Shown here one piece after another: positions 16,151-59,829 of a stretch of 64,000 nucleotides of DNA (its first letter is position 1; the number at the start of each line of letters is the position of its first letter). The stretch spans positions 1 through 64,000 of the forward strand of contig NZ_DS264358.1 of NCBI RefSeq assembly GCF_000153925.1, written 5' to 3'. The notes under the pieces were generated by a model that was given only the letters and a program-made list of their open reading frames with translations, was not told the origin of the DNA and made no database searches. The stretch is from [Ruminococcus] torques ATCC 27756 (GTDB lineage: Bacteria > Bacillota > Clostridia > Lachnospirales > Lachnospiraceae). A program made the position numbers and the translations under genes.

Positions 16151-19100
16151 TTAGTCTTCTTTTTTGCGAAGAGCTACGACTGCCGCTCCTGCCGCTAACA
16201 TCAACCCTGCAAGCGGAATGATCGGTGATACGCCGTTGTCTCCTGTCTGAACTGCTTTATCCTCATCCTTCGGATTCTCCGGTTTCGGATCTTCTGACAC
16301 TTTTACAAAGTTTGCTTGCAGCTCCGCTGCTCTGTCAACCTTAAACTTGTACTCTGCTTTATCAGAAACTACTTTGCCGGCTACTGTCCAGTTCACAAAC
16401 TTGTATCCTTCTTTTGCTGTCGCAATCGCTGTTACAATTTCGCCGTTTTCATAGCTTTCTTTTGCAGGATCAAGTTTTACCGTTCCCATCTTAGAGTCGT
16501 TTGCTTTTACTGTTATTGTAACCTTCTCTACCGGTTTTTCTGTCTTTTTGAAGTTCGCTGTCAGTTCTACGTTCTTATCTACTAAGAATTCATATGTAGT
16601 TTCTGTAGAAACCGCTTTCCCTTCTACTGTCCAGTTCACAAACTCATAGCCTTCTTTTGCCGTTGCTGTTGCCGTTACTTTCTCTCCCTTAGCATATTCT
16701 GCTTTGTCAGGATCAAGTTTTACTGTTCCCATCTTAGAGTCATTTACTTTTGCTGTTACTGTAAACTTCTCTACCGGCTTTTCTGTCTCTTTGAAGTTCG
16801 CTGTCAGTTCTACGTTCTTATCTACTGTAAATTCATATGTAGCTTCTGTAGAAACCGCTTTACCAGCTACTGTCCAGTTCACAAACTCATAGCCTTCTTT
16901 TGCCGTTGCTGTTGCCGTTACTTTCTCTCCCTTAGCATATTCTGCTTTGTCAGGATCAAGTTTTACTGTTCCCATCTTAGAGTCATTTACTTTTGCTGTT
17001 ACTGTAAACTTCTCTTCTACCGGAGCTTTTGCTTTAAAGTTAGCTGTCAGTTCTGTGTTCTTTTCTACTGTAAGTTCATATGTAGTTTTTGTAGAAACTT
17101 CTTGACCGGCTACTGTCCAGTTTACAAACTCATAGCCTTCTTTTGCTGTCGCTATGGCTTTTACTTTCTCTCCCTTAACATATTCTGCTTTGTCAGGATC
17201 AATTTTCGCCTCTCCCATCTTAGAGTCGTTTACTCTCGCTGTTACTGTAAACTTCTCTTCTACCGGAGCTTTTGCTTTAAAGTTAGCTGTCAGTTCTGTG
17301 TTCTTTTCTACTGTAAGTTCATATGTAGTTTTTGTAGAAACTTCTTGACCGGCTACTGTCCAGTTTACAAACTCATATCCTTCTTTTGCTGTCGCTGTTG
17401 CTGTTACTTTTTCGCCTGCATTGTATTTATCTTTTACAGGGTCAATCGTTACAGTTCCCATGTCCGTATTGTTTGCTTTTGCTGTTACTGTATATGTCTC
17501 CGGTGCAGGCGGATCCACTTTTTCTTTCACTGTAATTGACATTACGGAGTGTGCTTTTGCCGTCAGCTCAAGATCTGTGCCTTCTGCCGTAACTGTTGAG
17601 TTTTCAATCGTTACTTTATCCGGCTCTGCCAAGCTGTTTTCATCAACGAAGCTTTCACCCGCGAGCGTCTGTACTTCTACTGTTTTTCCTGTCAGATCTA
17701 CGCCGTCTACTTTCACGCGAAGTTTCTTATCATTTTCACGGTCTGTATTTACTACAGTTACATACAACGTTCCGTCATCACCTTTACTTGCGATTGCGGA
17801 ATATGCTTTTGTTCCGTTTGCCAATGTTTCTACGTGTTCAAACTCTGTTCCGACTACTTTCGTTCCTTTTGCAAATGAGTTAGAGAATAACTCGAACACT
17901 TTTGCTGAAGGTGTTGAGAAGAAACGGAAGTTCCCTTCTCCTGTTCCCTGATTAGCGCCCGTCTGCGGTACTGCCTGGATAACCGCCTGCTGTGTAGGTC
18001 CAAGTGAGTCTGCACCACTACTATACCAGTCTACAAGACAGTGTTTCTGGATGTACGGACTACCGAGACGAACGTACTCCATAAGCACTTTTGCAATATA
18101 TACTGCATGTGTCTGAGAACGAAGAAGCGGCGATGTAGATCTGAAAATACCATACTCAGATATAACCGGAACTTTTCCTTGCGGAAGCATGTTTACATAA
18201 TTTTTAACTTTCTGAATACCTACATTTTCCGCAAGACGCATTGCCGAGTCATAAAACGCACCTTTGTCCTGATCCGCACCCGGATCTCCACAATATGGAT
18301 GAATTGTCAGACCATCATAATAATTGTTCCAGTTACCTGCTGCCATCTTATCAATAAAACCTTTTGTTTCCCAACTGGAGTATACATAGCAGGATGCCTT
18401 TTCTGCACTTCCGCTTTTAGCATTGATTTCGTTAATCTCTGCCGTCATATCTTTCATCGCTTTAGAAACAGCTACAAATCCGTCTCTTTTAACTTTATAT
18501 GTTACATAGATTTGTTGTCCCTTCGCCGGGATTTTACCATGTGTTCCGTCTCCGAAGTGGATTGATCCGTCTCTGTAGTCGATTGTCACTTTCTGGTCAT
18601 TCGCTCCTGCGTTGTCAAGACTTTCTACAACCTCCCATTTATGATTGTTTCCTTCACCGTCAGTGCCTACCCATACTTCAACGCTTCCTTTTTGAACAGC
18701 TTCAAAGTTCTCAACCAATGTCTTTCCATCTTTTCCTGTCATCGGATTCGGGTTTGCATAACGCATGTAACGAACCTGATTTGCAGTTCCGTCACTGACA
18801 GATGCTGCCTTATTCCAGTCATCTTTTTTCACCGCATACTGTTTTGTAAAGCTTGCAACTCCACCTTCTACATACGCTTTTTCGGCATCCTGCGTTCCTA
18901 TCATCCAATACTGCTGAGATGTTGTTCCATCAGTACCCGGTTGATTATTTTCATTTCCAATCTCAAAGTAACGTACGTTGTACGGCTCTGCATGTCCGTT
19001 TTCTTTTCGGATATCTGCCCATGCAACACCACCGCCCGGATTACTTCCTGCCGGAGCGTTCAAATACTCTACAAGATCTGCAGCATCCTGTGCCGAACCA

Positions 19101-28701: not shown

Positions 28702-28748
28702 CGCTTCGTCGTCTCCTTTTCGGCATCTTAAATTCAAAAATCTATATA

Positions 28749-28840
28749 ATCACCGGAAGTGCCAAAAGGCACATTCCGGGATTGTAAGCAGTCGCCAAGG
28801 TCTCGGGCAAGCCCGGACTTTGGCTCGTTGCCTATACAAA
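28749..28840 (-). repeat. Two-hairpin dispersed element, copy A
   Basis: On the minus strand it reads T-tract, GTATAGGC, a first hairpin (GCCAAAGTC...GACCTTGGC with an inner CGGGC/GCCCG stem), GCTTACAAT and a second hairpin (CCGGAATGTGCC...GGCACTTCCGG, one bulged base). It starts in the T-tract of the terminator at 28838-28870 and ends just before spoIIAA. Confidence 0.8.
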
Positions 28841-28870
28841 AAAAGGACATGCCTCCCGGCATCTCCTTTT
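28838..28870 (-). terminator. Terminator of the TPR gene
   Basis: GGAGATGCC pairs with GGCATGTCC (one mismatch) on the minus strand, followed by seven T; it lies 14 bp after the stop codon. Confidence 0.85.
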
Positions 28871-36588: not shown

Positions 36589-36655
36589 TTGGCACTTTGC
36601 ACGCGCCAAAATTTCGGACAAACCCGACTTTGACCAGCCGCCGATACTCAAAACA
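36589..36655 (-). repeat. Two-hairpin dispersed element, diverged partial copy E
   Basis: On the minus strand it follows the hairpin AAAACAGTCC-GGT-GGACTGTTTT and then reads GTATCGGCGGCTGGTCAAAG, similar to the start of copies A and B. The second hairpin is lost. A separate 8-bp hairpin (GCCCCTCA/TGAGGGGC, 36569-36588) lies next to it. Confidence 0.5.
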
Positions 36656-36690
36656 GTCCACCGGACTGTTTTATCGCATGCTTGGCAACA

Positions 36691-36785
36691 ATCACCGGAA
36701 GTGCCAAACGGCACATTCCGGGATTGTAAGCGGTCGCCAAGGTCTCGGGCAAGCCCGGACTTTGGCTCGTCGCCTATACAAAAAA
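36691..36785 (-). repeat. Two-hairpin dispersed element, copy B
   Basis: It is nearly identical to copy A (28749-28840) and starts within the T-tract of the T-box attenuator. It is therefore transcribed as part of the valS leader whenever readthrough occurs. Confidence 0.8.
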
Positions 36786-36809
36786 CGCCCTTTACATCTG
36801 TAAAGGGCG
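36780..36809 (-). terminator. T-box attenuator
   Basis: On the minus strand CGCCCTTTAC-AGAT-GTAAAGGGCG is followed by six T. The antiterminator would use the T-box sequence just upstream. Confidence 0.92.
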
Positions 36810-37087
36810 AATTCTCCGCGGTACCACCTTATTTCATATATGCTGTCACACATATATCTCTCACATTCTATAACGGGAACTACTCCGGGATAACCTACTT
36901 CAATCGTTCAATCATCCGGTTCAGAAGCTACCTTCCATCATCCTTTTTCCGAAACTGCCTTTCAGCCGGATCTTCTTCATCTTTTGCTCAATCTCCTGCA
37001 AAGCTTCCTTAAATTCTCCGGGCAGTTCTCTCTGGCGGTTGGAATAATGTACTCCTCTTCATCAATACCTTTACCTTAAAATAACTA
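36784..37087 (-). promoter_or_regulatory. T-box riboswitch of valS
   Basis: The conserved T-box GGTGGTACCGCGGA is at 36815-36828 on the minus strand, directly before the attenuator. About 300 nt upstream the leader starts with the stem I signature GATGAAGAGGAGTA. An AT-rich stem III hairpin (ATATATG...CATATAT) precedes the T-box. A candidate specifier codon GUA (Val) is at 36896-36898, but the stem I fold was not computed. Uncharged tRNA-Val would allow readthrough into valS. Confidence 0.93.
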
Positions 37088-37151: not shown

Positions 37152-37570
37152 CAACAGTTCAGCCATATAGTGTTCGGGAAGCACAAAACATGCTTGCATG
37201 TTTTTGCGAGCGGACATCTGTATGTGCTGAGCGCCTTTTTATGAGTAAAACAGTGGCGGCAGCCACAATAAGCACGCAGTGCGGTTTTACGAATGGCGCG
37301 GGCGGAACTGTTGCTCTCAACCAAGCCTGCCATACAGTGTTCGGGAAGCACAAAACATGCTTGCATGTTTTTGCGAGCGGACATCTGTATGTGCTGAGCG
37401 CCTTTTTATGAGTAAAACAGTGGCGGCAGCCACAATAAGCACGCAGTGCGGTTTTACGAATGGCGCGGGCGGAACTGTTGCTCTCAACCAAGCCTGCCAT
37501 ACAGTGTTCGGGAAGCACAAAACATGCTTGCATGTTTTTGCGAGCGGACATCTGTATGTGCCGAGCGCCA
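37152..37570. repeat. 167-bp tandem repeat array of a MITE-like element (family 2)
   Basis: The sequence beginning TGTTCGGGAAGCACAAAACA recurs at 37171, 37338 and 37505, giving two full 167-bp units and a partial third, essentially identical. The first unit is bounded by imperfect 13-bp inverted ends CAACAGTTCAGCC (37152-37164) and GGCGGAACTGTTG (37301-37313). Internal hairpins include AAAACATGC/GCATGTTTT and GTGGC/GCCAC. ORFs read through the array are by-products of the repeat. Confidence 0.85.
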
Positions 37571-39298: not shown

Positions 39299-42200
39299 TT
39301 AGTCTTCTTTTTTCCGAAGAACTGTAACTGCCGCTCCTGCCGCTAATGCTAATCCTGCAAGCGGAATGATCGGTGATACGCCGTTGTCTCCTGTCTGAAT
39401 TGCTTTATCCTCATCTTTCGGATCCTCCGGTTTTGGAGTTTCAGGTTTCGGATCTGCCGCTACTTTTTCAAAGTTTGCTTTCAATGTTACATCTCTGTCC
39501 ACTTTAAATGCATACTCTGCTTTATCGGAAACTTCCTTACCGTCTACTGTCCAGTTCACGAACTTGTATCCGTCTTTTGCCGTTGCAGTTGCCGTTACGA
39601 CATCTCCTGCTTTATAGCTTTCTTTTGCAGGATCAAGTTTTACTGTTCCCATCTTGTCGTCGTTTACAGTTACGTTCAGCTTGAATGTATCTTCTGTTAC
39701 CGGCGGTTTCGGCTCTTCTTTCGCTTTGAAGTTCGCTGTCAGTTCCATATCCTTTTCTACAGCAAACTCGTACGCTGCAGAATCGGAGAATACTTTACCT
39801 TCCGATGTCCAGTTTACAAACTCATATCCTTCTTTTGCTTCTGCGATCACGATTACTGTATCGCCTTTTGCATAGTTTTCTTTCACCGGATCGACCGCTA
39901 CAGTTCCCATCTTGTCGTCATTTGCTTTTACTTTTACTGTAAATGTTTCTTCTACAGGATCTTTTGCTTTGAAGTTCGCCTTAAGCTCCATGTCTTTGTC
40001 AACTGTAAACTTGTACTCTGCTTTCTTAGAAACTTCTTCATTGCCTACTGTCCAGTTTACGAACTCATACTTGCTTTCGTCTTTTACTTTCGCAGTTGCC
40101 GTTACTTCTGTTCCTTCTTTGTACTTATCAGCTTCCGGACTAAGCTTTGCCGTACCCATCGCTTCATCGTTTACTGTTGCCGTTACTGTGTATGTCTTTT
40201 CTACAGGCGGCTGCGGCTCTTCTTTTGCTTTGAAGTTCGCTTTAAGCTCCATGTCTTTGTCAACTGTAAACTTGTACTCTGCCTTCTTAGAAACTTCTTC
40301 ATCGCCTACTGTCCAGTTTACGAACTCATATTTGCTTTCGTCTTTTACTTTCGCAGTTGCCGTTACTTCTGTTCCTTCTTTGTACTTATCAACTTCCGGG
40401 CTAAGCTTTGCCGTACCCATCGCTTCATCATTTACTGTTGCCGTTACTGTGTACTCTTTTACTTCAGGAACGTCTTTTACCACCGTGATCTTATAGTTTA
40501 TTCCTTCTGATGCCGCTACAGTTACTGTTCCTTCTTTCACACCTGTTACTACGTTTCCGGCAGATGCTTTGTAGAAGCTCCATCCGTTATCATCACTCGG
40601 ATAAGCTGCAACTTTATTATTATTTCCTGCCCAGTTGTTCAGATAATAATTATTTGCCGAAACAGAGAATCCTCCGTTTGCTCTTGCTCTGATCGTCAAT
40701 ACCTGCTCTGCATCCTTCAGTTCCACATTATTTCCAGAAATATTAATGTATTTGCCTGACGCGGCATCTTTCATCGTATAGCCTTCGCCTGATTTGGTAA
40801 GCGTCCACATAAAGTCTTTCGCAGTCTCATCATTATTAAAGTTGACCGCTTTCATTCCAAGACCTTTTTCAGAACCTGCTGCTGTACTTACCGTATTCAG
40901 CATGATATGACTATTATTTCCGAATAAATATGTTCCTTCTGTGATTTCTGAAATTGCTTTGTAAGGCGGCATGTTCTCACGTTTTTCCAAACTTACGATA
41001 CCGTCTTTTGTCACTTCGGATTCATTTAAAATCTTGCCCGGTACGTTATATGTCTCGCCGATCTTGATTGTTACTTCTTCCACATCATTTTTCACGAAGA
41101 TGAAGTATGTCTTGTTACCGATCTTCACAGATGTTTTGCCTTCTGCTTTTCCGGTAATTGTGATATCTGTCTTAGCACCGATTGTCTCATCTTCATACAT
41201 TTTGCCTGTTACCTTCGCAACATAGCTATATTTTTCATTTCCCGTTGCCGGATTCAACAAATAGTAATTATTGCCTTCTACAGTTGCCTTCATAGCGATC
41301 AAGTATTGACCACCGTTCTCAATTTCTGAGAGTTCACTGATTTTTGTATATCCTGGGATCTCACTATCAACTACATTGTCATCTTTTCGATAAAGTTCAA
41401 AATCACATTTGCCTTTACTATCTACAGAACCATTTCTATCGAAATGGAATTTACTTGCATCATCTTTCCAAAAATACAAATATTTGCTGTTTGAAGCGTC
41501 TTCTGCCTGCTGTAACGTAAATGCTTCTCCATTTTTAGCAACCGTAATAACCGCCTCTGTCTCGACAAGTGGTCTGTTAGCTCCTGATGATGATTTTGGT
41601 CCGAGATAAACCTTTTTCCCATCCTCTGTTACTGCTGTGATCTTATACTGGTTTTCTGTTCCCTCCTGTTTATCAAACGTAAACAGGCATTTACTGATCT
41701 TCTTCTCACCGCCATTATCAAACTGTGCATTAGTTCCAAGCGCTACCGAAGCCTCTTCTTTTATCGGGATATTTTCTTCAACTACTTTTGCAACATGATT
41801 AAAATTACTGCTTGCAGCAGATGGATTTACCGCATAATAAGTTCCATCATCCGCCTTTGCCGTAATTAAATATTTCGTACCGCTTGTAAGTTGAGAAATA
41901 TCTGTCACTTTCTCATACCCCGGCATTCCCAGATCATTTTTTGCACCTGGCGCCGCTTTCCATAATTCCATATGACACTGTGCCACATCACTGCTGTATC
42001 TGTCAAAGTGCAGCTTAGAAGTATCGCCCTTCCAGAAATAAAGATATGCACCGCCTGTTCCTTCTGTCATATCTTTTAAAGATACCGTTCCATCCTCATG
42101 TGACTCTAATAAAATTTCTGTCTCTGTCTCTGTGCTTACACACTGTGACGGTGCTTTTTTATGGTTCACATATACTTTCTTATCTCCAGCCTGTGCGGAA

Positions 42201-44134: not shown

Positions 44135-44170
44135 ACTTTTTCCCTCCGTTTATTTTTAGGCTCATGTCAA

Positions 44171-44265
44171 TCCCCCCGAAGTGCCAAAAGGCATATTCCG
44201 GGATTGTAAGCGATCGCCAAGTTCTCGGCGAACTCAGACTTTGGCTTATCGCCATTACAAAAAAG
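44171..44265 (-). repeat. Two-hairpin dispersed element, copy C
   Basis: It is diverged from copies A and B but keeps the TTTTTTGTAATGGC start, GCCAAAGTC, CGCTTACAATCCCGGAAT and the second hairpin around GCCTTTTGGC. It lies between the sialidase promoter and its start codon, so it should be part of the 5' untranslated RNA. Confidence 0.75.
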
Positions 44266-44315
44266 AAAAACCGTATTAAACCATCTACGATTTTCCATTT
44301 TACACCTTATTTTAA

Positions 44316-59656: not shown

Positions 59657-59705
59657 AAATAACTCTCCTCACACAAGGAACTCTCCCTATCAGTAATTTT
59701 TTCAA

Positions 59706-59799
59706 ATCACCGGAAGCGCTAAAAAAGCGCGCTCCGGGACTATACACGGCCGCAAAGTCTCAGGCAAACCCAGACTTCGTTCCGCCGCCGTTGCAAAAA
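59706..59799 (-). repeat. Two-hairpin dispersed element, copy D
   Basis: This is the most diverged full copy. The second hairpin reads CCGGAGCGCGC...GCGCTTCCGG: the upper stem differs from copy A (GTGCC/GGCAC) but still pairs, with the bulge kept in the same place. It starts in the T-tract of the terminator at 59795-59829. Confidence 0.65.
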
Positions 59800-59829
59800 G
59801 GGACTGCCTGTATTCCGGCTTAGTCCCTT
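59795..59829 (-). terminator. Terminator of the pyrE operon
   Basis: AAGGGACT pairs with AGTCCCTT with an inner GCC/GGC stem, and five T follow on the minus strand. Confidence 0.85.

Follow-up and report, generated by a model that had tools for sequence, protein, structure and literature searches.

Repeated element copies in the 64-kb window

The stretch of DNA analysed here, called the window throughout, is 64,000 nucleotides (64 kb) long and carries four full-length copies (A to D) of a short element that can be aligned with one another over 95 nt and that all lie on the minus strand. Downstream of copies A, B, C and D are genes for, respectively, a STAS/SpoIIAA protein, valyl-tRNA synthetase (ValRS), a BNR-repeat sialidase-like protein and a VanZ protein. 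Each full copy adjoins a hairpin, and copy B occupies the leader of valS, where the hairpin is the terminator of a T-box. The features are as follows.

28748..28842, minus strand: copy A, full-length element upstream of spoIIAA (covariance-model match, 120.4 bits)
28845..28866, minus strand: terminator hairpin whose T-tract precedes copy A (-13.0 kcal/mol; a similar terminator without the element at 27 of 29 readable spoIIAA loci)
36690..36784, minus strand: copy B, full-length element in the valS leader (covariance-model match, 119.6 bits)
36786..36809, minus strand: terminator hairpin of the valS T-box leader, whose T-tract precedes copy B (-15.7 kcal/mol; hairpin without the element at 29 of 29 other loci)
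36800..37074, minus strand: T-box leader of valS (Rfam RF00230, 106 bits)
About 36599..36650, minus strand: partial copy (left half) behind a second hairpin (nhmmer E = 8.9e-7; hairpin by eye)
44170..44263, minus strand: copy C, full-length element upstream of the sialidase-like gene (covariance-model match, 85.4 bits)
44265..44296, minus strand: A/T-rich hairpin preceding copy C, ends approximate (-9.0 kcal/mol)
59705..59799, minus strand: copy D, full-length element upstream of the VanZ gene (covariance-model match, 71 bits)
59800..59827, minus strand: terminator hairpin preceding copy D (-13.5 kcal/mol)

An earlier note on this DNA had described four full copies and a partial one, each pointing at the next gene (spoIIAA, valS, nanH and a VanZ gene). 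The four copies are confirmed, the partial copy behind copy B is supported by its nhmmer match, and the downstream genes are as named. The note had also stated that four of the five copies adjoin unrelated hairpins and had counted the leading T residues as part of the repeat. The hairpins were found; the T residues, however, we assign to the terminator, and so to a target outside the element, because relatives carry T-run terminators at these places without the element. Its further claim that the second stem still pairs in both A and D, and is irregular at one shared position, agrees with our inspection by eye. In copy D the minus strand shows this irregularity as a bulge next to a G.T pair, and in a fold of the plus strand it widens into a small internal loop.

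Size and distribution of the family

A BLAST search with the element found 40 places in the 2.7-Mb genome that contains the window (self match E = 4.3e-44, next 6.9e-43), the best copies being up to 99% identical over 95 nt, and a covariance model (R1) returned 49 matches in the same genome at E <= 0.001. This model and its alignment (A2) comprise 26 of the 30 near-full copies from this genome, four others (C28:227294, C40:154624, C20:67564 and C25:92075) having been left out for insertions or degeneration. Terminators resemble each other, and the copies might be attributed to chance similarity among them; near-identity over 95 nt, together with the unrelated hairpins that precede the copies, already refutes this explanation, which we regard as practically inconceivable.

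When the covariance model was run on relatives, as the earlier note had proposed, matches appeared in 17 of 41 genomes including that of the window, namely in 17 of the 25 from the same genus and in none of the 16 from other families of the order. Genus-wide, R1 matches were present in 40 of 58 genomes (again including that of the window), with 0 to 49 copies each under strict filters. An exact scan of named genomes (100 stretches, 80 loci listed) found the core pattern in Mediterraneibacter, Mordavella, Oliverpabstia, Blautia, Coprococcus, Fusicatenibacter and others, and the element is therefore spread more widely than one genus. Because the core GAGCCAAAGTCYGNGYTTGCNCGAGACCTTGGCGAC is fixed by the scan pattern, its conservation in that set is uninformative. 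Outside the core, at least two subfamilies are evident among the named loci: subfamily I has a right hairpin of the form CCGGAATGTGCC... and its elements end in GATT, and subfamily II carries ACGCGAGCAAC before the core and its elements end in AGTT. Fusicatenibacter copies have further, different right hairpins. A plasmid search gave no match to the element, and viral contigs held no exact match to its pattern; five unannotated records from human fecal samples in a phage collection do match and are uninformative.

Two kinds of unusual copy were encountered. At L279, L281, L266 and L293, subfamily II copies stand in tandem, the next starting at or near the previous right end, as if that end were a target. 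Two 59-nt copies (G000:C39:7631-7689 and C39:327837-327895), both behind T-tracts, have no core hairpin and look as if they had been deleted between two GGCGAC repeats that flank it.

Association with terminator hairpins

To score neighbouring hairpins, one script applied a single rule, namely a hairpin with a folding energy of -6 kcal/mol or lower whose end lies no more than 2 nt from the T-run. By this rule a hairpin stands at the T-run of 52 of 59 copies, made up of 25 of the 31 best copies from the genome of the window and 27 of 28 from relatives. Among the remaining copies of that genome, 11 of 18 have a hairpin, for a total of 36 of 49. Control T-runs of the window that lack the element yielded 9 of 90 in non-coding and 38 of 348 in coding DNA, and at -8 kcal/mol the counts are 23 of those 31 copies versus 8 of 90 control T-runs (Fisher p = 9.5e-12). 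Most copies, checked match by match as the note had suggested, thus stand at terminator-like hairpins. Among the named loci, 41 of the 47 sorted by script as subfamily I have a hairpin, as do 32 of 35 in subfamily II, the latter by a more lenient rule with no matched control.

Several copies that fail the hairpin rule follow a hairpin and then an interrupted T-run (by eye). The T-run precedes the element in most copies and is also present in the terminators of loci that lack it. The hairpins preceding different copies are unrelated to one another, as are the genes upstream. Some belong to regulatory leaders: copies on contigs C2 and C19 follow T-box-like terminators (by eye), and a Fusicatenibacter copy (L284:872-1117) follows an FMN riboswitch (Rfam) and precedes a putative membrane-protein gene (by eye).

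Orthologous terminators without the element

At valS, 30 loci were read from the 58 genomes. All 30 have the leader hairpin, and almost every one also has the T-rich tail behind it (weak in L176); the element occurs in the genome of the window only. The spoIIAA loci across the genus repeatedly show a terminator whose stem is of the GGATATGC type, and the element is found in the genome of the window and in G013 among 29 readable loci (L206 having been left out for too little flank), the other 27 being empty. Further spoIIAA loci read by eye include one with the element (G021), one with a truncated element (G024) and one that is empty (G009). These empty orthologous sites indicate insertion.

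When G013 is set against G064 (L212) at spoIIAA, the sequence beyond the element in the former can be aligned with that beyond the T-tract in the latter, and no duplication is seen (by eye), this being a single comparison in which duplicated T residues inside the T-run would be invisible. The valS flank past copy B cannot be aligned to the empty loci.

Structure, covariation and the RNA alternative

The model structure consists of a basal stem joining both sides of the core, a core hairpin, and a right hairpin with a bulge. Copies from the genome of the window have 88% of cells paired, and 14 pairs carry changes in both partners, against a mean of 9.6 in shuffled data, where 17 of 500 shuffles come to 14 or more. 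Among 72 copies from outside this genome (66 distinct), 94.8% of cells are paired and 16 pairs are changed on both sides (shuffled mean 4.8; 0 of 500 shuffles reach 16); these copies were not used to build the model, their alignment is fitted to its structure, and related sequences can exceed shuffles. Alignment A3 was drawn from 68 chosen sources, leaving out subfamily II loci, the odd copy L093 and loci repeating a copy already present; at least one repeated copy was kept (L097 and L272), with identical rows counted once. Given no structure, RNAalifold kept 15 pairs in the set from the genome of the window and no right hairpin. From the paired fractions and the shuffle results, we conclude that folding is conserved, yet that the copies in this genome also decay. 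An excess of G.T over A.C cells in those copies did not hold in the others.

No terminal inverted repeats were seen: the left terminus pairs with an internal TACAA rather than with the right terminus. A subterminal hairpin is present near each end, the core and right hairpins are mutually dissimilar, and copies found by the core pattern carry different right hairpins. At the right end, the foot of the hairpin is complementary to the end of the element, as AATC/GATT in subfamily I and AACT/AGTT in subfamily II (by eye). On the left, a weak AAAG is the only guide candidate.

Conserved pairing with covariation is what would be expected of an RNA element kept for its structure, such as an attenuator partner or an RNA-stability or processing element, and the positions of copy B, of the C2 and C19 copies (by eye) and of the L284 copy after T-box, T-box-like and FMN riboswitch leaders are in keeping with such a role. 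Against it, orthologous loci mostly lack the element, copies follow unrelated genes, and 12% of cells are unpaired in the decaying copies from the genome of the window; we consider this explanation very improbable. The pairing itself is not decisive, because a regulatory RNA and an element that moves as a folded strand account for it equally well.

Of the two readings in the earlier note, selection on RNA structure has real pairing with covariation behind it, and the empty sites speak against a conserved regulatory role. Its other reading, a mobile unit that targets terminator T-tracts, is supported by those empty sites, by the patchy copy number and by the hairpin excess over control T-runs. 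Findings that the note had named as telling against a structured, terminator-associated family did not appear: there is no Rfam match at gathering level, most matches lie at terminators, and covariation is present. Specifically, Rfam 15 gave only the valS T-box above the gathering threshold in the window, and only sub-threshold matches to the element stretch at E values up to 10. We know of no named family with this layout. An open PMC literature search brought up no description that we recognised as this element, and none stands in the part of PMC9208149 drawn on here.

A probable mobile element directed to terminators

We are highly confident that the element is mobile and targets terminators. 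Judged from sequence, the repeat is most likely a non-autonomous mobile element of this kind and not primarily a selected regulatory RNA, because the family is dispersed, its association with hairpins is above control, and orthologous terminators are empty. Genome comparison suggests that an element of approximately 90 nt would insert, in one orientation, immediately 3' of the T-tract of an existing intrinsic terminator or attenuator, and that it would leave no visible target-site duplication. Landing there would let the element spread while leaving genes uncut and the terminator in place.

Most likely, the element would move as a single DNA strand in folded form, with both hairpins, left and right, bound by a HUH/IS200-like transposase acting in trans. 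In this scheme the T-tract would serve as a short left target, and the final GATT, pairing with AATC at the foot of the right hairpin, would be the right cleavage site. Insertion may take place at the replication fork, on terminator DNA exposed there as a single strand. Taken as a whole, this single-strand-DNA mechanism in trans is the one we favour, at a little less than even odds, and it names a candidate mover only. As regards replication, the complete GAM79 genome, in which dnaA lies at 440, has three full copies; all are plus-strand and fall in the first 1.23 Mb, but they are too few for a judgement on strand bias. Contigs from the genome of the window are one-sided (C26, 7 of 7 minus; C39, 10 of 12 plus) in a manner confounded with gene direction.

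Candidate enzymes

The proposed mechanism has its closest model in non-autonomous elements derived from IS200/IS605, which we take to be those called PATEs. Like them, the element is short, has two folded ends and no terminal inverted repeat, shows no visible target duplication, and inserts 3' of a short T-rich target; the complementarity at its right end may correspond to their guide/cleavage pairing. Unlike them, it has a target that includes a hairpin, and its left and right hairpins are dissimilar, where matching ends would be expected of one TnpA; in addition, the search for an autonomous relative sharing its ends gave none, and some host genomes are without a detected Y1 gene. Guide/cleavage logic of this sort is described for IS608 in PMC6006769. 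According to the abstract of PMC5934647, what IS608 recognises is a tetranucleotide and not a target hairpin, which counts against the mechanism.

The genome of the window contains three intact IS200-type elements (L044, L045 and L046), each directly behind a hairpin and a T-rich pentamer, and one IS200 in G060 with the same left end is likewise placed (both by eye). L045 has its IS200 flanked by a T-tract on one side and a partial element copy on the other; at L082 an element is followed immediately by sequence resembling the left end of the IS200. Other IS200 types in the genus give a mixed picture, some appearing to stand behind terminators and others (L119 and L120) not (by eye). Comparison of the resident IS200 ends with those of the element showed them to be different.

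Within 900 nt of 156 element matches in 142 loci, no transposase-like genes recur (clusters in at least four loci, by eye). Six gene clusters do occur in at least four loci near copies: four are encoded opposite to the element, some of them visibly as antisense frames across it, and the other two are transporter-like families. In many copies one antisense frame of the element is open, which gives recurrent, probably spurious ORFs. Two loci with the core and without the usual right hairpin (L252 and L266) were considered as autonomous copies and set aside, no transposase being recognised in the 700 nt after the core (by eye). A Y1 gene was not found in the draft genomes G009 (49 copies), Mediterraneibacter glycyrrhizinilyticus BSD2780061687b (G075; 22 of the 80 listed loci) and MAG S22M_St_6 (G077; 12 of the 80 listed loci); as these assemblies are drafts, the absence is not absolute. 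Conversely, G001 has nine Y1 matches and no element copy, and the number of IS200-type genes is unrelated to element copy number (by eye).

It is quite possible, though we lean against it, that the element moves as described and is mobilised in trans by an enzyme from another transposase or recombinase family. All the evidence for mobility applies equally to such an enzyme, and Y1 genes were not found in some high-copy genomes. However, the absence of a target duplication and of terminal inverted repeats argues against most DDE families, including the makeup of a classical MITE (neither feature was seen, the duplication having been judged from the one spoIIAA comparison). Furthermore, no candidate enzyme recurs near copies, the genome-wide enzyme searches being those for Y1 (PF01797) and for the group II RNA model (RF00029).

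Relatives also carry a Y1 gene of about 250-285 aa beside the glycyl-tRNA synthetase gene, which we take to be RAYT-like. It adjoins that gene in many loci read (L136-L154) and is flanked by its own GGGGACGTAGTRAAA-type hairpins in nine. None was seen with PF01797 in the genome of the window, and a model search of 20 loci around long Y1 genes found no element. The element is like REP/REPIN sequences with RAYT (TnpA-REP) in being short, folded, intergenic and present in many copies; unlike them, it does not flank the RAYT-like gene, whose hairpins differ from it, and we rejected this gene as the mover.

A further alternative is that the element is a SINE-like parasite, its RNA being inserted behind terminator hairpins in trans by a group IIC intron ribonucleoprotein. 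Such introns target a DNA stem-loop followed by T residues, as outlined in part of PMC10190682, which is the same kind of landing site. At L342, the 3' end of a group II intron lies at the left junction of one copy (by eye); that copy is without its first bases, as though the intron had taken its landing site, and the contig stops before the remainder of the intron. On the other hand, introns consist of a ribozyme and a reverse transcriptase, whereas the element has neither, being without a catalytic core, and it does not match group II domains V-VI (RF00029), which led us to reject it as a group II remnant. RF00029 matches occur in 31 of 58 genomes with no visible relation to copy number and were not found in G045 (34 copies) or G013 (36 copies), all under strict filters. 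The AGTT end of subfamily II is also unlike the consensus end of group II introns. We consider insertion by this route rather unlikely.

Comparison with other small repeats

Small mobile repeats are usually thought to scatter and then to be filtered by selection. The element is a small interspersed repeat, which is a known kind; what is unusual is its structured target. The pneumococcal SPRITE, BOX and RUP sequences are, in the portion of PMC3049150 relied on here, likewise small interspersed repeats presumed to be mobile in trans, with SPRITE enriched near gene 3' ends. The element differs from SPRITE, described there as itself terminator-like, in that it inserts behind pre-existing terminators, for which empty sites were found.

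A bacterial counterpart of SINEs, namely a 90-nt geneless structured element that parasitises machinery reading a DNA hairpin and T-tract, in the manner of group IIC intron ribonucleoproteins, and that has spread behind terminators across Lachnospiraceae, is a doubtful and quite unlikely prospect. The element family, the IS200 type and the group II introns in the same genomes seem to converge on the terminator hairpin and T-tract. If so, terminators would be a general and harmless landing site for mobile DNA, elements behind T-box or riboswitch attenuators would enter the leaders of regulated genes, and the mover of the element would be a testable question.

Other repeats in the window

The window also holds a 167-bp tandem repeat in three copies (97-99% alike, the third over 74 nt) at 37162-37569, a short way upstream of the T-box leader of valS. 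Two large ORFs contain related repeats of about 243-261 bp, at 16304-17575 and 39471-40468, and the latter ORF encodes a sialidase-like protein with repeated Flg_new_2 domains.
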